A stretch of DNA of 30,462 bases from IMG/VR virus record IMGVR_UViG_3300032267_001036, positions 1-30,462 of that record, one strand, 5' to 3'. The first letter of the stretch is position 1; each line of letters opens with the position of its first letter. Shown piece by piece: positions 3,957 through 26,768 of the stretch. Source of the DNA: a virus. The translations under genes and the position numbers were made by a program. Below the pieces are notes generated by a model. It saw only the letters and a program-made list of their open reading frames with translations. It did not search any database and was not told the DNA's origin.

Positions 3957-4400
3957 TTAATCTACAAAGGCCTTCATTTTCTGCGCATACTCAAATGACT
4001 TAATGCGAGAAATGATTTCACGGGCTTGTAATGTAATAAACACTACCGGACCGCCGTCATCAGCTGGATCTACAACAAAACGATCGCCACCGTATTTAAT
4101 CGTCCTTACCAAATCACCAACTTTGCACCAATTACCTTCAATCCAAGGTTCTAGTGTATCTGGTGACTTGTATGCTAAAGGACCTACTTGTACGACTTTA
4201 GCTACTGTCTCGTTGAACTTCAATGTTTGTTGAGTTTCGTCAACAAAAATGATGCCGCCTTTACTTTTTACTTTTTGCCGACGCAGCTGGACTAAAACTC
4301 GGTCTCCAACTACTTCAACACCCGGATCTACATCAGGAAAACATTCTAATTCTGATCTTGTATCCGGCTCTTCTTTGTTACTTAAATCAAATGCTGCCAT
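3957..4400 (-). CDS. groES: Phage GroES-like co-chaperonin
   Basis: 147 residues with a GroES core: VVGDRVLVQLRRQKVKSKGG (about 29-48) matches the first strand and the beginning of the mobile loop, GGIIFVDETQQT is the loop that contacts GroEL, and VGDLVRTIKYGG with a terminal VVFITLQAREIISRI completes the barrel. It is longer than the roughly 97-residue bacterial protein, with an N-terminal extension and a longer C-terminal part. AAGGAG precedes the ATG. Phage co-chaperonins such as T4 gp31 redirect host GroEL to fold capsid protein; the location between portal and scaffold fits that role. No phage GroEL is in the window, so host GroEL would be the partner. Confidence 0.85.
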   Translation of the reverse strand: MAAFDLSNKEEPDTRSELECFPDVDPGVEVVGDRVLVQLRRQKVKSKGGIIFVDETQQTLKFNETVAKVVQVGPLAYKSPDTLEPWIEGNWCKVGDLVRTIKYGGDRFVVDPADDGGPVVFITLQAREIISRIKSFEYAQKMKAFVD

Positions 4401-7748: not shown

Positions 7749-7779
7749 TACTAATGCAAAGAAAAGGACATTTTCGCCC
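7749..7779 (-). promoter_or_regulatory. Phage promoter-like motif, copy 3
   Basis: On the minus strand GGGCG (7775-7779) overlaps the TerL stop codon and is followed after 14 bases by TTTGCATTAGTA (7749-7760) and GTATTAGGACAAACATG. It faces the portal gene. The roughly 40-base leader contains the mini reading frame MIQQILK before the portal ATG at 7707. Confidence 0.65.
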
Positions 7780-9224
7780 TATTGTGCGTATGGGTTGGTA
7801 AATCGTTTGCCATAATCATCGTCAGCGTAGCTATAATCGCGCGGTGGCAGGTAGTCTAGTTGGATCCAGCCAGAATCACGCAAAACACGCAGCGCTTGTG
7901 ATAGGGAGTCTACATAGTCATCATGACCGCCTGCTTCTGGAAACGAACAAACCTGACGTAAGAACCGTTTAGCCCAGTCAGCGTAGTCGCCTTTTTGTTT
8001 GGTATCCTCGGGTATGAATACTTTTCCCTTAGCAACAAGGGGCGCAACGATGTTTAAGCGCTGCACCTTGTCAGCGCGTCCAGGATTGTAGCCCCGCACT
8101 GGAACCATGGCGCCTTGAAGCTCTTGAATCAGCGAAATACCCGCCGATTTGTCTTCCATCAGAATCAAGTCCGCTTTTCTGCCCTTAGCAAAGTCATTAT
8201 CAGCACCATAAACCACTTCTTTGTAGTCATCAATCACTTTTCGGCGCAATTCCGGATAGGCAAGGTGCGCATCCCACGCATCTAACAGGATAATCGCTGT
8301 GCCAGCGTCTAATTGTTCAAAAACTCCCCAGATTGTGCAAGCCGTGGGGTCGTTCATAGTTTTTTCGCTGGTAGCTGGGTCGTAGCTGGCGATGACGTAC
8401 TCCAGGGTAGGAGTTGGTTTGTCAGCGGGCCAAAGTTTGAACTGTTTACGTTTGATAATACCAGCGGACTCAGGGTCTAAAATCTCACCGTAAATCTCTT
8501 GACGACCAATGTCGGTGCCATCATACGTCTCTAGCTGTTTAAAAAACGTTTCGGATAGGTTTGCGCGGTTATCGTACGAGGAAGCGTTAGCAACATACAC
8601 GTCACCACCGATTTTTCCTTCATTAATATCAACAATTAACTCCTTTGGTTTAGGAGTTGTGGTAATTATTTGCTGAACTCGCGGTATTCTGGGATCTTTA
8701 AGACGTAGTGTGAATTGCACTCCATCGTAGGCTTCGTCAAGGTAATCGAAGGCGCAGAGTTCGTCAAACCAAGCTCCGTGATATTGCTTACCACGATAGC
8801 GTTCTGGTTCCGAACCAGGAATACCCTGAATAATTGATCCGTTAGTAAGGGTGATTTCAAATAATGATTTGTTGTAGTCTCGGATAAGGGAATGTGGAAT
8901 AATGTTGAGTAGTCCGCTGTCACCTTCAAAGCAAGTGGCTCGAATGTCATTACTGGTCGGAGCAGTAACAAGCCAACGAGTATTGTCGTATGTCCAAGCA
9001 CGAATCCCAATCCAATGCGACGCAGTGTGGGTTTTGCCGGATCCGCGCCCAGCGAGCATAAGAAACGTATCATATTCACCATCGTCCGGTTCCCTCTGGT
9101 GGGGAAGCGCTTGTAGGTGCCATTTGACTTTCCAAAGGACAGCATCAAGCTGTTGTTTAGGCCAGTGTGGTCTTGCTTGGGCGAACTTCTTTAACTCAAG
9201 TTCTTGTTTAGGGGTTAGTGGCAT
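7779..9224 (-). CDS. terL: Terminase large subunit (packaging ATPase and nuclease)
   Basis: 481 residues from ATG 9224. It pumps DNA into the prohead and cuts the concatemer. Walker A is GRGSGKT (59-65); Walker B is the WFDEL segment (152-156); a coupling-like ITTTPKP follows. The RNase-H-like nuclease shows SYDPATSEK (Asp282), ILMEDKSAG (Glu357/Asp358) and GGHDDYVDS (Asp435/Asp436). I preferred ATG 9224 over the earlier ATG 9287 because AAGGA sits eight bases upstream and the first 21 codons of the longer form are an Arg-rich out-of-frame reading of the intein-like gene. It overlaps that gene by 10 bases in the -1 frame. Confidence 0.93.
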   Translation of the reverse strand: MPLTPKQELELKKFAQARPHWPKQQLDAVLWKVKWHLQALPHQREPDDGEYDTFLMLAGRGSGKTHTASHWIGIRAWTYDNTRWLVTAPTSNDIRATCFEGDSGLLNIIPHSLIRDYNKSLFEITLTNGSIIQGIPGSEPERYRGKQYHGAWFDELCAFDYLDEAYDGVQFTLRLKDPRIPRVQQIITTTPKPKELIVDINEGKIGGDVYVANASSYDNRANLSETFFKQLETYDGTDIGRQEIYGEILDPESAGIIKRKQFKLWPADKPTPTLEYVIASYDPATSEKTMNDPTACTIWGVFEQLDAGTAIILLDAWDAHLAYPELRRKVIDDYKEVVYGADNDFAKGRKADLILMEDKSAGISLIQELQGAMVPVRGYNPGRADKVQRLNIVAPLVAKGKVFIPEDTKQKGDYADWAKRFLRQVCSFPEAGGHDDYVDSLSQALRVLRDSGWIQLDYLPPRDYSYADDDYGKRFTNPYAQ

Positions 9225-10180
9225 GGGATAAATCCTTCTCCTACGAGAATGGTGTTGTTTTGCCCGTCGGTTTCTACATGGACGCACATTTGATCTGATA
9301 TTGAATCAATTGAGCGGATGTATCTGCGGTCAACATGAACGCGCATCTTTGGCGAGCGCTGGTTTTCCACCAAAGTATGACGGGATTTAAAAGAAATAGT
9401 ATACGCTTTTATTTGGGAAAGCGTGGTCTTCATCCCCAAAGACTCTACAAGTGCTTGAATTTGGCTGATAAATGGAAAACTAATCGACGTTATCCTAAAC
9501 CGATCGTCTTTTACCGAATACTGGCGGGGTTTGCCATGAATAAACCCCCGCAATAACTCCATACGCTGCTCAGGAGAACCCATCAGGTAGTTAGTAGGTA
9601 TCTGCCGAGGTAGGTTGGGTATGAGTTGTGACTCAATGGACGGGGTGACTGAAAAGTAATACCAGCCCTTAGTAACTTTGTAGCCAGCATCCTGAAATTT
9701 TTGGGTGACATAATCCTCGTTTTGGCCAAGAAACGTCATTTGGTTGTGTTTTTTGCGGTTGACAAACCAATAAGCAAACACAAACGGCGGTATGGACAAC
9801 GGCTGGGTTGGCAGTACAATAGGCTGTGTGGTTGGTACTGAGATAGCCCAACGATTGGTTTTGGTTTTAAGGGGAGTTGTCAGTAAGTCCTGGATGGGTA
9901 AGAACTTAAGTGGGCGGCGAAATTTAAATCGGCCCTTGTATTCCGCTAAACGTTTGCGGTATTTTGGGGTTTCTACTAGGAAACCAAGTTTATCGTCCCC
10001 AGCTGCCGTAAGATGGTCATCAAAATTAATGCGATAGCAGTTGTTTGCCCTGTATTCTTGGACTAAAGTGACTTTGCGGGGAAAGCCATCTTTGTCAAAC
10101 ACATAGTCGCCTACCTGCAGTTTGTGCGCAGGTTTCCAATAATCAAGGGTTAGTACCTTCTCTGTTGCTAGTATAGCCAT
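9215..10180 (-). CDS. Orphan intein-like (Hint) protein with decayed endonuclease domain
   Basis: 321 residues laid out like an intein without exteins. The N-terminal Hint block is EKVLTLDYWKPAHKLQVGDY with VFDKDG next (7-32). The block B region (LTAAGDDKLGF, about 57-67) lacks the usual TxxH histidine. A central part (about 130-265; FVFAYWFV, GSPEQRMELLRGFIHGK, IQALVESLG) resembles a degenerate LAGLIDADG homing endonuclease. The C-terminus CVHVETDG...TILVGEGFIPCH looks like intein blocks F and G but stops at His without the terminal Asn. It overlaps terL by 10 bases and the preceding gene by 38. Self-splicing is unlikely; a role in terL expression or a relic are the options. Confidence 0.7.
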   Translation of the reverse strand: MAILATEKVLTLDYWKPAHKLQVGDYVFDKDGFPRKVTLVQEYRANNCYRINFDDHLTAAGDDKLGFLVETPKYRKRLAEYKGRFKFRRPLKFLPIQDLLTTPLKTKTNRWAISVPTTQPIVLPTQPLSIPPFVFAYWFVNRKKHNQMTFLGQNEDYVTQKFQDAGYKVTKGWYYFSVTPSIESQLIPNLPRQIPTNYLMGSPEQRMELLRGFIHGKPRQYSVKDDRFRITSISFPFISQIQALVESLGMKTTLSQIKAYTISFKSRHTLVENQRSPKMRVHVDRRYIRSIDSISDQMCVHVETDGQNNTILVGEGFIPCH

Positions 10181-10448
10181 AAAAATTATCTAGAACCCAG
10201 CGGTCCAGCCATCTCCCTAACGGAGCGCGTATTTTGTTTTGAATGCCATAGGGTAAGCGCCGTACATCCATGACATCAGTAACTTTGAGGCGAAATTCCA
10301 AGTATCTGGCTGTCTCGGCGTCAATGACTTCCACCGGTACGTCCACAATCTCAAAGTTATTCTTATCACACACCAAGACTCGCAGGCCGAGGAAATGGCC
10401 CTGAGCATCTTCCAATGCTCCTTTGATCTGATATGCATAATCATTCAT
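10143..10448 (-). CDS. Small protein at head of packaging operon, unknown
   Basis: 101 residues from ATG 10448 (MNDYAYQIKGALEDAQ at the start). A mixed alpha/beta composition with a basic C-terminal half (RRLPYGIQNKIRAPLGRWLD). I rejected the longer reading from 10667, which runs through the promoter and iteron region. The ATG sits five bases after a promoter-like TTTGCATTAGTA motif with no room for a Shine-Dalgarno site, as in the gene at 4615. Its 3' end overlaps the intein-like gene by 38 bases. Function unknown; the position beside terL is where some phages carry terS, but no HTH is apparent here and a better TerS candidate is at 25890. Confidence 0.65.
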   Translation of the reverse strand: MNDYAYQIKGALEDAQGHFLGLRVLVCDKNNFEIVDVPVEVIDAETARYLEFRLKVTDVMDVRRLPYGIQNKIRAPLGRWLDRWVLDNFYGYTSNREGTNP

Positions 10449-10453
10449 AAACC

Positions 10454-10484
10454 TACTAATGCAAACAATTGCCGTTTTGCGCCC
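10454..10484 (-). promoter_or_regulatory. Phage promoter-like motif, copy 4
   Basis: On the minus strand GGGCG (10480-10484), 14 bases, then TTTGCATTAGTA (10454-10465) and GGTTT before the ATG at 10448. It is the probable start of the leftward packaging transcript. The arrangement after the motif matches copy 2 almost exactly (GGTTTATG versus AGTTTATG). Confidence 0.7.
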
Positions 10485-10512
10485 CGTCTGGCACGATTTG
10501 TACCAGTAGTAC

Positions 10513-10628
10513 CAGTAGTATGGGTCAAAACAACTTTTATCCGGAAATAAATTTATATTATTACAATTATTACAAATAAATACAAATAAAGGGGTACTAC
10601 TAGTACTACTAGTACAAAACGCTTGTAA
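10513..10628 (+). repeat. 116-bp direct repeat, copy A
   Basis: It begins CAGTAGTATGGGTCAAA and ends CGCTTGTAA, enclosing CAACTTTTATCCG, an AT-only tract of about 50 bases, and GGGGTACTACTA. The copy at 15922-16037 has the same order, spacing and total length (116 bases). Ends are strongly conserved and the AT tract is diverged. An AT-rich core framed by iterons resembles an origin or a large operator. Confidence 0.75.
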
Positions 10629-10646
10629 GTCCTTGATAGTTCGTCC

Positions 10647-10665
10647 GCAAATGAGAATCATTATC
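10647..10665. promoter_or_regulatory. Fur-box-like site 1 (partial)
   Basis: GCAAATGAGAATCATTATC matches the classical 19-base Fur consensus GATAATGATAATCATTATC at 15 of 19 positions; the right half is perfect. It lies between the 116-bp repeat and an iteron at 10672-10687. Host iron regulator binding is inferred only from sequence. Confidence 0.45.
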
Positions 10666-10671
10666 AATTAA

Positions 10672-10687
10672 TTTGTACCCCTTGTCA
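10672..10687 (-). repeat. 16-base iteron (exact)
   Basis: On the minus strand this reads TGACAAGGGGTACAAA. Exact copies are at 15906-15921 (minus) and 16098-16113 (plus), and a one-mismatch copy is at 16012-16027 (plus). Shorter versions (GGGGTAC, TTTGTACC) occur at 10497-10504, 10591-10597, 16000-16006 and 16074-16080. Likely initiator or repressor binding site. Confidence 0.7.
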
Positions 10688-10779
10688 GGGTTCCCACATT
10701 GTGAAACGCATTTTGCAAAAAAAATTTTAGGAAGTCAGTTTTTACAGAGCAGGGAAAATTATAAAAACTTGAGCTTTGT

Positions 10780-10807
10780 GGGGCCCCCGGGGCCAGGGGG
10801 GTGGGGG
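10780..10807 (+). other. G-quadruplex candidate
   Basis: Four G-runs (4, 4, 6 and 5 Gs) are separated by loops of 5, 3 and 1 bases, satisfying the usual quadruplex rule on the plus strand. The intervening CCCCC can instead pair with GGGG to form a hairpin. It sits between the two Fur-like sites in the divergent region. Confidence 0.5.
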
Positions 10808-10827
10808 TCTATTTATTAGGGTATGCC

Positions 10828-10847
10828 TTATTAGGGAAAACCCCTAT
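10828..10847. promoter_or_regulatory. TAGGG dyad operator-like site 1
   Basis: TTATTAGGGAAAACCCCTAT: TAGGG and CCCTA half-sites around an A-rich centre. Near-identical sites lie at 11090-11108 and 13296-13315, and one is inverted at 13259-13273. They frame the GGCC-rich gene island. Confidence 0.5.
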
Positions 10848-10855
10848 GCCACAAT

Positions 10856-10874
10856 GATAATGAGAATCATTATC
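10856..10874. promoter_or_regulatory. Fur-box-like site 2 (18 of 19)
   Basis: GATAATGAGAATCATTATC differs from the classical Fur consensus GATAATGATAATCATTATC at one base. With one flanking base on each side it is a perfect 9-bp inverted repeat (TGATAATGA / TCATTATCA, spacer GAA). It is upstream of the rightward early genes. Confidence 0.6.
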
Positions 10875-11089
10875 ATCTAGGTGAGCGCTGCACAATGTTG
10901 CACTGCACCATATTGCTAGGCGGCCAGCATGCCAGCAAGTCAATGAGTCATTAAGGGAATGCAGCAGCAGCCAGACAATAAGGCCATAGCGGCCACTATG
11001 GCATGAAGGGGAAGGGGCTCAACGCGTACGCGTAGGGAGGGGAAGAGGGTACGCGATACAATGCCAATATGCAGCGGCGCCGGTATCCC

Positions 11090-11108
11090 ATATTAGGGTA
11101 AACCCTAT
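11090..11108. promoter_or_regulatory. TAGGG dyad operator-like site 2
   Basis: ATATTAGGGTAAACCCTAT, followed directly by a further TTAGGG. The core TAGGGT-AA-ACCCTA is a 6-bp inverted repeat. It lies about 16 bases upstream of the likely -35 element of the early promoter, a typical operator position. Confidence 0.5.
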
Positions 11109-11123
11109 TAGGGTTTTTAGTTC

Positions 11124-11153
11124 TTGAGTTTTGTATTCTTATACCGTTATAGT
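11124..11153 (+). promoter_or_regulatory. Sigma70-like early promoter
   Basis: TTGAGT (11124-11129), an 18-base spacer, then TATAGT (11148-11153). The transcript would start near 11160, about 45 bases before the ATG at 11205. It is the best host-type promoter in front of the rightward small-gene block and has TAGGG dyads just upstream. Assigned by eye. Confidence 0.5.
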
Positions 11154-11204
11154 ATCCATATAGCAGCAATTAAGCCGCTATATTTAATGGAAGGATCTAA
11201 CACC

Positions 11205-20266: not shown

Positions 20267-21596
20267 TTTACACCCTTATCAACTTAATCTTATTAAGGAG
20301 GCGGCATCATGCCCAAACATCGGACTCTTCCTGCCACCGGGACTAGGGAAGACAGCTACGACCTTGACCATTATTGCAGAACAGTTCGAGGGGACGACGC
20401 TGATTATCGCACCAAAACGCGTGGCGGAGACAGTGTGGGACAAAGAAATAAAAAAGTGGAGCCACTTAGCCCAGTTACGCGTATCGAAAATAATGGGGAC
20501 GCAGACGCAGAGATTGTCCGCCTTGACTTCTCCAGCCGATATCTATCTGATAAACCTTGAAAACCTAGCATGGCTTTGTGACCTTTCACCCAAGTTAGTG
20601 TTCACTAACTTAGTAATAGATGAGTCCAGCCGTTTTAAGGACCCCTCAACCAAGCGTTTTAAGGCGCTTAAGAAGCATTTAAAAGGCTTTAAGAGACGTT
20701 TAATTCTGACGGGTACACCTACCCCTCAAGGTATCGCTGATCTCTGGTCACAGGTGGGTATATTGGATCTTGGGGAGCGTTTAGAAACCAGCCTGACTAA
20801 GTTTAGGGACAAGTATTTAGAACCCGATCAGATGAACAGGCAAACGAGGGTGGTTTATTCTTGGCGCTTAAAATCAACTATGAGTTTAGTTATAGAAGAG
20901 AAAATAAACGACATCTGCTTCTCTCTTAAGGCAGATGACTATTTAAATCTACCGAAATGTACCTATGTATACCATAGTATATCTTTTGACCCACAGGTAA
21001 GGAAAAAATATGATGAACTTAGAAAAGACATGGTCGTTGACATCAAAAAAGAAAAAATCACAGCTCCAACAGCAGCAGCACTGGCGAACAAGCTGCTCCA
21101 ATTCACATCGGGAGCGGTCTATAACGAAGAAGGAGAAACTCAAGAAGTACACCGCTCTAAACTGGAACGGCTTGAGTCGCTCATGGAAGAATCTTCAAGT
21201 CCCACGCTTGTCTTCTATCATTTCAAGCATTCGCTCCAACGAATACGTCTTCAGTTCCCAGAGGCGGTGGTGCTGGACGATGACAACATTGAGGCGTGGC
21301 GTCGTGGCGAGATTCGTATGCTCCTTGCCCACCCGCAAAGCGGTGGCATCGGGCTTAATCTACAGTGCAACGTTGGAGAGACAGCACAAACGGTCTGGTT
21401 CGATCTGCCATGGAGCTCAGAAAACTACATCCAGGCAAATGCTAGGATCTACCGCCAAGGGCAAGAAAAACCGGTTATTATACACCATCTAGTAATGTAT
21501 AATAGTATCGATGAACACGTGGTCAAAGTGTTACAAGGCAAGATCAACTTACAAGATGCAATACTAGATTCATTAAACATTGAAAGCAAGAAATGA
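20250..21596 (+). CDS. SNF2/DEAD-type superfamily 2 helicase
   Basis: 448 residues: a Q-motif-like N-terminus, Walker A PPGLGKT (29-35), Walker B LVIDESS (DESS 124-127 instead of DEAH), motif III LTGTP (153-157), and motif VI RIYRQGQ (399-405). The RIYRQGQ form is typical of SNF2-family translocases, which remodel DNA-protein complexes and assist recombination and repair. It overlaps the VRR-NUC gene by 17 bases, so the two are coupled and may act together. The stop overlaps the start of the acyl carrier protein gene. Confidence 0.88.
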   Translation: MLQRTDLHPYQLNLIKEAASCPNIGLFLPPGLGKTATTLTIIAEQFEGTTLIIAPKRVAETVWDKEIKKWSHLAQLRVSKIMGTQTQRLSALTSPADIYLINLENLAWLCDLSPKLVFTNLVIDESSRFKDPSTKRFKALKKHLKGFKRRLILTGTPTPQGIADLWSQVGILDLGERLETSLTKFRDKYLEPDQMNRQTRVVYSWRLKSTMSLVIEEKINDICFSLKADDYLNLPKCTYVYHSISFDPQVRKKYDELRKDMVVDIKKEKITAPTAAALANKLLQFTSGAVYNEEGETQEVHRSKLERLESLMEESSSPTLVFYHFKHSLQRIRLQFPEAVVLDDDNIEAWRRGEIRMLLAHPQSGGIGLNLQCNVGETAQTVWFDLPWSSENYIQANARIYRQGQEKPVIIHHLVMYNSIDEHVVKVLQGKINLQDAILDSLNIESKK

Positions 21597-21892
21597 ACGA
21601 ACAAGAATTATTAGATTTAATGAACAACATTATCAAAGCGGCAAAACCAATGGATAGTGAAGAAATTGTTCTGACGTCTTTAGACATTCCAATCAAAGAT
21701 ACCGGGCTAGATAGTTTAGATTGCATTATGATTAACATTTTTCTAGGTGAAATGTTCGGTGTTTCTTCAGAAACTATTGGCGAAATGCAGCTTGGTCCAG
21801 AAAGCAAAATGAGTGACATGATTAATTTTATGCTTGAACATAAAACAAAACAGCCAGCAACTTTAGTTGAGGCTTTGGAAAATATTAAATGA
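21593..21892 (+). CDS. Acyl carrier protein-like (phosphopantetheine carrier)
   Basis: 99 residues. The motif DTGLDSLDCIMINIFLGEMF gives the GLDSLD sequence that accepts the 4'-phosphopantetheine arm, on Ser41. Acidic helices before and after it match the ACP fold (usual length 75-100). The C-terminal 20 residues extend beyond a minimal ACP. ATGA overlap with both the helicase stop and the ketosynthase start means it is part of the phage operon. A host phosphopantetheinyl transferase would be needed; none is in the window. It carries the growing acyl chain for the next two genes. Confidence 0.88.
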   Translation: MNEQELLDLMNNIIKAAKPMDSEEIVLTSLDIPIKDTGLDSLDCIMINIFLGEMFGVSSETIGEMQLGPESKMSDMINFMLEHKTKQPATLVEALENIK

Positions 21893-23016
21893 AAATTTAT
21901 TTGACCAGATACAATACACTTAGCACTACCAACACAAAAGTGTTGTCCGATTTAAAGTATCCACAAAGGGTGCATTGGATCCCTGAACTTTATTCAAGGG
22001 TTAAAACCGGATTTGCTTACGTGCCACACGAAGCGGCATACAAAATTCTCACCAAAGAACTGATTGATTACGTAAAAAATAATTCAGTAGATGGAAAAAC
22101 TGGTTTTATTCTAGCCGGAGGCTCACAAGGTTGGGCTGGTGGTAAAGCTGTTGGTGAAGATAAACCCAGTGAGCTTGACTACTCTTTTAAACTAGGCATT
22201 TTATCGGTTACAAACATTTTTGCTGGCCGAGTCGCCGCTATGTTTGAGGCCTATGATTATGTTGCCACGGATGCAAGTACTTGCGCCACTGGTATCAAGT
22301 GCATGATGGACGTACAAAACCTCATTAACAATTTGGGATTTGATCGTGTAATTATGTTGGCTCAGGAAGACCCAACATCAAAACTAACGTTAGAATTTTT
22401 TGGACAAGCAAATGCAAACATTCTTATCAAAGACGAAGAAGCTGGTGCTATACCCTCAGCTTTTGATAGTATTAATTCTGGATTTATTGTTGGTCAAGGT
22501 GCTGCTGTGGCAGTGTTTGAGTCCGAGGCTGCAGTTAACAAAAACGCGGTTACGCCAAAAGCTGAGCTTTTAAGCGCATGGGTATCTGCTGAGGAGCTTT
22601 CTAATCCAATTGGTCAGCGACCAGATGGTCAAGGCTATCAGCGTGCGATTCGTGGCGCATTAGACATGGCCAAGGTTGAGCCGTCTGATATTAAGATCGT
22701 AAAGACACACGGTACCGGCACACCCACAAATAACCAGTCAGAAAAGACAGCGCTTACTACTGTACTTGGTAATAACTTTGTGGCAACGTCATACAAGCAG
22801 CGTATTGGACATACTGTGGCAGCTAGCGGATTGCTTGAAACATGTTTGATACTAGACGATATGCAAAAGGGCATAGTGCCAGCTATTGCAAACCGCACAG
22901 AAAACGATGACTTGTTTTTATCACATGAAGTAGTTGCCCCAAATGGGTTGTTGATGAGCATGGCCGCGGGCATGGGCAACATCTATGCTGCAGCAGTAAT
23001 TAATCCAAAAGTTTAA
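21889..23016 (+). CDS. Beta-ketoacyl-ACP synthase (FabF-like condensing enzyme)
   Basis: 375 residues. The condensing-enzyme active site is intact: Cys132 in DASTCATG, His274 in KTHGTGTPT, Lys303 and His308 in YKQRIGHTVAASG. The C-to-H spacings (142 and 34) are close to those of FabF (140 and 37), and the Lys-to-His spacing of five is identical. The N-terminus is about 40 residues shorter than FabF's 413, and the bulky start MKIYLTRYNTLSTTN is atypical. It should condense malonyl-ACP with an acyl primer. Start overlaps the ACP stop by four bases. Not a chain-length-factor, since the Cys is retained. Confidence 0.88.
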   Translation: MKIYLTRYNTLSTTNTKVLSDLKYPQRVHWIPELYSRVKTGFAYVPHEAAYKILTKELIDYVKNNSVDGKTGFILAGGSQGWAGGKAVGEDKPSELDYSFKLGILSVTNIFAGRVAAMFEAYDYVATDASTCATGIKCMMDVQNLINNLGFDRVIMLAQEDPTSKLTLEFFGQANANILIKDEEAGAIPSAFDSINSGFIVGQGAAVAVFESEAAVNKNAVTPKAELLSAWVSAEELSNPIGQRPDGQGYQRAIRGALDMAKVEPSDIKIVKTHGTGTPTNNQSEKTALTTVLGNNFVATSYKQRIGHTVAASGLLETCLILDDMQKGIVPAIANRTENDDLFLSHEVVAPNGLLMSMAAGMGNIYAAAVINPKV

Positions 23017-23017
23017 T

Positions 23018-23449
23018 ATGGAAGATATTTTTAAAACTCTGCCACACAGATATCCATTCCTTCTTGTGGATAAAATTTTAGAAATTAACAAAGAAAATGC
23101 TAGTGTAACTGCACTTAAAAATGTTACGTTTAACGAACCATTTTTTCAAGGACATTTTCCAAACTTTCCGGTAATGCCGGGGTTTTTAATTTTAGAGGCG
23201 TTGGCTCAAACATCAATTCTTTTAAAATTAATAGAACCTGTAAATGAAACAGCAGGTAATATTTTTATTATTGCCGTAGACAATGTAAGGTTTACAAAAC
23301 CTGTTGTTCCGGGGGATCAATTAAAACTATATGCTAAGTTAACATTTGCCAAAAACAATATTTACAAAGTAGAAGTACAAGCTACGGTGGAAGAAACAGT
23401 TGTGGCAAAAGCAATTATAACAAGCACCCATATTAAAAATGAAACCTAA
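23018..23449 (+). CDS. fabZ: FabZ-type 3-hydroxyacyl-ACP dehydratase
   Basis: 143 residues with a complete hot-dog-fold active site: LPHRYPFLLVD near the start, then FFQGHFPNFPVMPGFLILEA. Catalytic His46 and Glu60 are 14 residues apart, as in bacterial FabZ. It would remove water from 3-hydroxyacyl-ACP. Its ATG follows the ketosynthase stop by one base (TAATATG) and its end overlaps the next gene by 11 bases. The gene looks more AT-rich than its neighbours, consistent with separate acquisition. The cycle also needs a ketoreductase, an enoyl reductase and malonyl transferase, all absent here. Confidence 0.9.
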   Translation: MEDIFKTLPHRYPFLLVDKILEINKENASVTALKNVTFNEPFFQGHFPNFPVMPGFLILEALAQTSILLKLIEPVNETAGNIFIIAVDNVRFTKPVVPGDQLKLYAKLTFAKNNIYKVEVQATVEETVVAKAIITSTHIKNET

Positions 23450-25634: not shown

Positions 25635-25900
25635 TGGCAACTAAAAAGAATGGTCCCTCGCTTGCAATTGGCCGTGGTGAAAAGCTGCCTGCGTCTAAAG
25701 GTGCTGGGCTTACCGCCAAAGGTCGTGCTAAATATAATGCGGCTACTGGCTCGAATTTAAAGGCACCACAGCCTGAAGGTGGCCCACGTAAGAAATCATT
25801 TTGCGCTCGCATGTCGGGCATGCCAGGTCCTATGAAGGACGAGAACGGCAAGCCAACACGCAAGGCAGCAAGTCTAAAAAGGTGGAAGTGTGGCAGCTAA
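25634..25900 (+). CDS. Small basic phage protein (88 aa)
   Basis: Starts MATKKNGPSLAIGRGEKLPA. Contains AKYNAATGSNLKAPQPEGG and a C-terminal KSFCARMSGMPGPMKDENGK with KPTRKAASLKRWKC. Looks like the basic phage proteins with a Cys-rich FCARMSG motif, whose function is unknown. Starts by coupling (TAATG) with no strong ribosome site. Overlaps TerS by 11 bases in another frame. Confidence 0.6.
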   Translation: MATKKNGPSLAIGRGEKLPASKGAGLTAKGRAKYNAATGSNLKAPQPEGGPRKKSFCARMSGMPGPMKDENGKPTRKAASLKRWKCGS

Positions 25901-26282
25901 AAAACCCCCAGCAAACAAGAAAACCTTTACGCAAGAAATGGCGGATGCCATTTTGGATTTAGGTCGTCAAGGTGCATCCCAAAAAAGCATGTACGCAGCA
26001 ATTGGCATCAGTAAAGCCACTGCAGCTAAGTGGAAGCAGGAAGACCCATTCTTTGCTGAGACCATGGACATGGCTACAACCTACGGTCAGTCATACTGGG
26101 AAATGATGATGCTTGCCAACGTAGAGAACAAAGCGTTTAACTCTCGTATTGCTGAGATAGCATTACGTGGTCAGTATCCAGATGACTACAAAGACAACCG
26201 AGAAATTAAGGCTAACGTAAAACAAGAAGTCGCTATTGACTTTAACAAGGAAATAGCGGACCTCATCGCAGCACTAAAGTAA
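25890..26282 (+). CDS. terS: Putative terminase small subunit
   Basis: 130 residues from GTG 25890. The N-terminus is basic, then an HTH-type segment (ADAILDLGRQGASQKSMYAA, IGISKATAAKWKQEDPFFAE, about 18-57), and an ending IADLIAALK. The HTH followed by a helical C-terminus matches TerS-like DNA-recognition proteins. It would bind the packaging site and load TerL. Placement is odd: TerL is on the other strand at 7779-9224, about 16 kb away. GGTGGA precedes the GTG. Confidence 0.7.
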   Translation: MAAKKPPANKKTFTQEMADAILDLGRQGASQKSMYAAIGISKATAAKWKQEDPFFAETMDMATTYGQSYWEMMMLANVENKAFNSRIAEIALRGQYPDDYKDNREIKANVKQEVAIDFNKEIADLIAALK

Positions 26283-26314: not shown

Positions 26315-26334
26315 GCCAGTGCTTACTCACTGGC
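26315..26334. other. 7-bp hairpin between TerS and HNH genes
   Basis: GCCAGTG (26315-26321) pairs with CACTGGC (26328-26334), loop CTTACT. No U-tract follows, so terminator function is not supported. It sits in the 81-base gap before the HNH gene and could be the remnant of an insertion boundary or a folded leader. Confidence 0.4.
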
Positions 26335-26363
26335 TACCCACCAAAAGACCGGTAAGGGTATCA

Positions 26364-26768
26364 ATGAAGAAGTGCCCAATTTGTAAAGTTACAAAACCTT
26401 TATTTGAATTCAATAAATCAAAATCCGCAAAAGACGGGCGTCAATACATGTGTATTTTATGCATAAAAGCATACAACAAAGCGCATTATCAAAAATTAAA
26501 AACACATTACGACGCAAGAGATGCAAAACGCAGATCATCCAAAATACAAAGAACACCACGATGGATTAAGGATGTTTTTGTGGAAGAAATTAAAGTCATA
26601 TACAATAGGGCAAATTTGATAAAGAAATTTACAGGTGAATCTTGGCATGTCGACCATATAGTCCCGTTAAAAGGAAAAAAAGTGTCTGGTTTGCATGTTC
26701 CTTGGAATTTACAACTTCTTCCGGCGGCTGAGAATTTAGCCAAAAGTAATAAGTTTTCGCCCCAGTAA
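26364..26768 (+). CDS. HNH endonuclease, free-standing
   Basis: 134 residues from ATG 26364 (AAGGG before it; the frame open from 26319 lacks a site). Two Cys pairs (CPICK near the start and CILCIKAYNKAHY about residue 32) likely bind a structural metal. The catalytic HNH core is WHVDHIVPLKGKKVSGLHVP, then WNLQLLPAAENLAKSNKF. It resembles phage-borne homing-type HNH enzymes. Adjacent to TerS, where HNH proteins may also help cos cleavage. The gene lies alone in a 560-base gap, which suggests a mobile insertion. Confidence 0.85.
   Translation: MKKCPICKVTKPLFEFNKSKSAKDGRQYMCILCIKAYNKAHYQKLKTHYDARDAKRRSSKIQRTPRWIKDVFVEEIKVIYNRANLIKKFTGESWHVDHIVPLKGKKVSGLHVPWNLQLLPAAENLAKSNKFSPQ

Follow-up and report, generated by a model that had tools for sequence, protein, structure and literature searches.

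A standalone gene derived from a class 3 intein, predicted to be inactive in splicing and DNA cutting, is fixed before terL in a clade of freshwater phages

Inteins are normally seen as selfish elements, parasites that come and go, and, to our knowledge, an entire intein has rarely become a standalone gene of its host, yeast HO being the known case. HO and WHO are intein-derived, are expressed alone without exteins and have no C-terminal splicing residues. HO is domesticated, and it demonstrates that a standalone intein-derived gene can keep its nuclease (PMC7282813). The same paper cites WhiA/DUF199 as a transcription regulator derived from a LAGLIDADG endonuclease that has lost its cutting activity (PMC7282813). 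In phages, the closest described systems are the class 3 (WCT) inteins, as defined in PMC7664689, which include those of the Clavibacter phage CMP1 TerL, the Brevibacterium phage Rousseau DnaB-like helicase and mycobacteriophage terminases; such inteins have been placed in the ATPase domains of terminases (PMC5050341).

In the window, i.e., the whole stretch of 30,462 nucleotides analysed here (positions 1 to 30,462 of the IMG/VR record IMGVR_UViG_3300032267_001036), a standalone intein-derived gene for a protein of 321 amino acids lies on the minus strand at 9215–10180, directly before terL. The ORF starts with ATG, and its translation begins with MAILATEKVLTLDYWKPA and ends with LVGEGFIPCH before the stop codon. 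Alignments delimit an N-terminal Hint half (residues 1–72, blocks A and B; 9965–10180, minus strand), which is followed by an inserted, strongly basic LAGLIDADG region (residues 73–284; 9329–9964, minus strand) and by a C-terminal Hint half (residues 285–321, blocks F and G; 9218–9328, minus strand), which ends before the position of the intein terminal Asn. All complete homologues have their own ATG and stop, and terL is read in another frame, so there are no exteins.

This protein resembles the class 3 phage inteins in its full-length fold, the absence of Cys1, the context of the block F Cys, the LAGLIDADG insert and the association with a terminase gene. However, it is encoded alone, lacks the block B His, the WCT Trp, the ancestral terminal Asn and the catalytic acids, and is fixed in its clade, whereas the occurrence of those inteins is sporadic. 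Unlike HO, which is eukaryotic and keeps both the nuclease and a zinc finger, the phage Hint protein carries no additional domain and no longer has the nuclease acids, while WhiA differs from it in having an HTH and no Hint domain. PI-SceI (the VMA1 intein), which gives the best full-length match among solved structures, is a class 1 intein active in splicing and cutting and embedded in a host protein.

The family identity of the gene as a domesticated class 3 intein is well shown by sequence and structure comparisons. PHROG terminase profiles that contain inteins match the Hint protein (phrog_15, 1.5e-9, residues 8–172), and 188 phage records have intein-type matches at E<=1 (best 4e-14), the matched segments being inteins of terminase, DnaB and other P-loop proteins. 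A profile search against PDB sequences ranks class 3 DnaB inteins first, although weakly (E 0.008). Pfam and NCBIfam gave no match at threshold for the window's protein and almost nothing for 60 family members, with weak Pfam LAGLIDADG_3/Hom_end signals in a few of them. The AF2 model built from 60 homologues (pLDDT 92.4, pTM 0.87) has a complete intein fold, with both the Hint halves and the LAGLIDADG fold present. In Foldseek, it matches PI-SceI over the full length (E 1.7e-13, TM 0.73–0.74) and, over the Hint core, the class 3 DnaB inteins 6bs8 and 6rix (20–22% identity, 1.3–1.4 A over 69 columns); its LAGLIDADG part matches I-DmoI. In BFVD, the best match is a short phage protein of 293 amino acids (A0A6J7WN65), and helicases and terminases that bear inteins rank next. 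The first-pass annotation, which had described a full-length intein-like protein before terL, is thus borne out both by the sequence searches and by the predicted fold.

The nearest phage inteins inspected are all of class 3 (7/7). They have no starting Cys, carry HxW or HxxW-like motifs (HLW, HQW or HEW) in block B, show in block F a Cys followed by [VIL]xV, and end with PTHN. Since most of them reside in P-loop genes and several in TerL, the Hint gene may plausibly have originated as a terL intein, with the donor gene deduced from this placement. The idea of a “relic” of an intein once inside terL was therefore right as to intein ancestry and plausible as to the source, but “relic” itself is a wrong word because the gene is intact, strongly constrained and fixed in its clade.

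The residues required for intein and nuclease activities were counted over 96 distinct Hint proteins. Intein position 1 (Ala2 of the window protein) is Ala in all of them, the block B His is absent from every one (replaced by Leu in 89, Met in six and Phe in one; Leu65 in the window), and the WCT Trp at position 67 is likewise found in 0/96 (Phe67 in the window). The position of the WCT Thr (G:5) is occupied by Cys or is variable, and the full WCT motif is not present. A terminal Asn was detected in one protein, that of L002, which ends in C-N at codons constrained by the overlap with terL; the ancestral terminal Asn is lost in 96/96. None of the 96 has Asp or Glu at the LAGLIDADG catalytic positions 141 and 215, which are Asn and His in the window. 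With Ala1 and without the block B His, the LAGLIDADG acids and the ancestral Asn, the protein is predicted by sequence to be incapable of either splicing or DNA cutting. The first-pass annotation had already pointed to the missing His, Asn and functional LAGLIDADG; the maintenance of the gene across a whole clade was beyond its view, as was the inference that the missing Cys1 indicates class 3 inteins, with the block F Cys present (Cys299). This Cys is assigned to the class 3 F:4 position on the motif PxxCVx[IV][ED][TS], which holds only if the ungapped hhalign alignment is shifted by two residues. An autocleaving regulator, also proposed earlier, is unlikely given the lack of exteins, of the block B His and of the ancestral terminal Asn throughout the family.

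The relatives were gathered by TerL, and the Hint family was also searched for in viral and genome collections. The clade obtained is a large group of uncultured freshwater phages. Where TerL scores exceed 950 bits, the Hint gene occurs at 158 of 160 loci; as some contigs are represented by more than one locus, these loci correspond to about 135 distinct contigs. The gene is missing only at L042 and L063, whose contigs are cut at the terL start. Thus, every clade contig with sequence upstream of terL carries the gene, and a plain overlap without Hint sequence, named beforehand as one of the cases that would speak against the first-pass view, was not encountered among them. In the lower-scoring sister TerL loci, the gene was found in 0/162 (about 150 contigs, mostly with TerL at 450–560 bits), and the sister clades examined have terS directly before terL. 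The sporadic presence expected of an active homing endonuclease is not observed; the gene is fixed in the clade and co-inherited with TerL.

Among isolated and uncultured relatives, the Caulobacter phages (TerL at 42%) and MW202545 (52%) are without the Hint gene. In GB2A, terL is preceded by a partial terminase-like ORF and a methyltransferase gene, neither of which is Hint. In the genome collection, three different copies of the cluster (L243, L244 and L245) were found only on contigs of one betaproteobacterial MAG; these contigs are probably binned phage and give a weak hint at either the host or a binning effect.

The Hint gene is under strong purifying selection and is inherited vertically with TerL. 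The median Nei–Gojobori dN/dS is 0.078 (292 pairs with dS 0.1–0.9; a descriptive figure, as the pairs are non-independent), and by parts it equals 0.048 for the N-terminal Hint half, 0.043 for the C-terminal half and 0.087 for the LAGLIDADG part. Distances between Hint proteins correlate with those between the TerL proteins (Mantel r 0.72, 0/999 permutations), with the Hint protein changing about 3.7 times faster (mean distance 0.455 vs. 0.124).

The terL gene (7779–9224, minus strand; 481 amino acids) is identified by Pfam Terminase_6N (2.7e-17) and by PHROGs. Its ATG (9222–9224) is in the −1 frame relative to the Hint gene, the last 10 nt of which are shared, and its Shine–Dalgarno sequence GGAGAAGG (9234–9241, minus strand) is located within conserved Gly-Glu-Gly codons of the Hint gene. 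Reading of the ORFs thus agrees with the earlier description of a protein ending with GFIPCH in the −1 frame of terL, with the Shine–Dalgarno in its last codons. The GGA codon is used at G314 in 83/106 distinct sequences, as compared to 11–39 at five other Gly positions, which is expected if the terL Shine–Dalgarno is selected there. The overlap comprises 10, 7 or rarely 4 nt in a constant frame relation, except for three HNH insertions and one stop-bearing contig. Residue C320 is invariant in all proteins; since its TGN codon holds the TG of the terL ATG, this conservation is uninformative on catalysis.

Upstream of the Hint gene and overlapping its start by 38 nt is gene X (10143–10448, minus strand; 101 amino acids), which co-occurs in most of the clade. 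Its AF2 model (pLDDT 86) has no significant PDB fold, and a Pfam match was not found. Next to it, the 10449–11200 region is non-coding and divergent, contains repeats, among them a 29-nt imperfect inverted repeat and a TATTAGGGTA...TATTAGGG unit present in two copies, and represents a candidate packaging or replication site. The palindromes GATAATGAGAATCATTATC at 10856–10874 and 10647–10665, in the non-coding sequence upstream of the X-Hint-terL operon, are Fur-box-like, with one mismatch to the E. coli Fur consensus. Their core AATGAGAATCATT (<=1 mismatch) is present upstream of the operon in 33/103 relatives (66 hits, both strands counted). Elsewhere in these loci, 803 kb contain 0 hits, and 1.3 Mb of sister loci contain 6. 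The phage operon may be controlled by iron or by the host Fur.

Free-standing HNH genes sit exactly at junctions: between Hint and terL (L022, L032 and L040), just before Hint (L136) and after terS (26319–26768 in the window). In other parts of the window, three adjacent genes at 21593–23449 encode a small acyl-carrier-like protein (no Pfam match), a beta-ketoacyl synthase and a FabA/FabZ-type dehydratase, forming a fatty-acid synthesis cassette in a phage, and a GroES-like co-chaperonin gene (phrog_3188) is located in the structural operon at 3957–4400.

The ancestral element was in all likelihood a class 3 intein with a LAGLIDADG domain, of the kind found in the P-loops of phage terminases and helicases, which came to stand as a gene of its own immediately in front of terL when this phage clade arose. 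All splicing and DNA-cutting residues were then lost, and the protein has been kept since by vertical inheritance. The Hint half may provide a structural platform, and DNA may be read by a surface of the basic LAGLIDADG half, while translational coupling would provide for synthesis of the protein together with TerL. Most likely, the protein binds phage DNA and TerL and helps or regulates the initiation or specificity of packaging beside the canonical TerS. The net charge of residues 73–284 (median about +20; +17 for the whole protein, as compared to −4 to +13 in seven related active-type inteins) hints weakly at DNA binding. A domesticated, nuclease-dead and splicing-dead class 3 intein acting as a putative DNA-binding partner or regulator of packaging is the reading we prefer, at slightly less than an even chance. 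The “maturase-like” role proposed in the first-pass annotation comes near to it as a nuclease-dead, nucleic-acid-binding function, with the binding being presumed.

Several points speak against a packaging partner. A separate terS-like gene (25890–26282, plus strand; phrog_309, 3e-8) is present in the window and in 8/9 related contigs of at least 50 kb, and a packaging role for the Hint protein is not required. The Hint protein is therefore not the sole candidate for the DNA-recognition subunit and would add to TerS; its replacement of TerS is rejected, and the TerS family profiles of PHROGs do not match it. Moreover, the adjacency to terL could reflect the embedded ribosome-binding site of terL rather than a shared function, and the faster evolution relative to TerL does not favour a partnership.

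The main rival is a WhiA-like regulator, in which the nuclease-dead LAGLIDADG protein would bind to the large divergent non-coding stretch that precedes gene X and would control the late/structural operon. It has a precedent in WhiA itself, and it is consistent with the repeat-rich nature of 10449–11200 and with the position of the Hint gene near the start of the leftward operon. Nevertheless, it is to terL, rather than to the beginning of the operon, that the Hint gene is most strictly linked: the Hint-terL pair persists where the intergenic region and gene X differ or are lacking (gene X is missing directly upstream in L130, L150, L152 and L159), and the AF2 model is without an added HTH domain. 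We consider this regulator unlikely.

The next explanation, to which we give still less credence, is a shield against homing: the dead endonuclease would still bind the part of terL that encodes the P-loop, where its intein ancestors usually sit, and block the invasion of active inteins from competing phages. Ancestral inteins do target P-loop DNA, and no intein was found in terL of this clade. However, a protective effect is not visible in the sample, where sister clades without the Hint gene are also free of terL inteins (the family HMM gave none across the 162 sister loci, and a search of 11 larger sister records, run without positive control, likewise gave none), and the rapid protein change is a poor fit to a conserved DNA target.

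It is very doubtful that Cys299, which was once the class 3 nucleophile, catalyses cleavage, ligation or thioester chemistry in the protein itself or in a partner. This Cys is kept in 93/96 distinct proteins in the PxxCVx[VI][DE][ST] context, but its His partner is replaced, the Trp and the N-extein are absent, Val stands in its place in four loci, and the gapless profile alignment displaces it by two positions. That the gene is a selfish intein or homing endonuclease in decay or still on the move, with no function for the phage, is highly improbable: descent from such elements and an in-frame stop at codon 274 in one relative (L004/L118, one contig) would agree with it, but the dN/dS of 0.08, the fixed distribution, the co-inheritance with TerL and the loss of catalytic acids do not, and decay is rejected on the low dN/dS and intact frames. 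Least credible is a −1 frameshift fusion with TerL, as proposed in the first-pass annotation: the terL frame is open in the window for 21 codons above its ATG, back to GTG at 9287, but in relatives this extension is not conserved (1–34 codons, mostly 9–17), visual inspection of the junction revealed no X XXY YYZ slippery heptamer, and in three relatives an HNH gene lies between Hint and terL, for which reasons the fusion is rejected.

In the open-access literature searched, we found no nuclease-dead, splicing-dead and clade-fixed phage gene tied to terL. Since the PHROGs terminase profiles match such genes, the labels “terminase” and “homing endonuclease” are unsuitable for them and should be avoided in annotation. 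Tentatively, a selfish intein may here have become a core factor of the motor that packages viral DNA, reading DNA as a partner of TerL in the place that terS holds in sister phages. Being by its residues dead in both activities, yet fixed and conserved in a large phage clade, the Hint family would offer a direct test of intein domestication for packaging or regulation.
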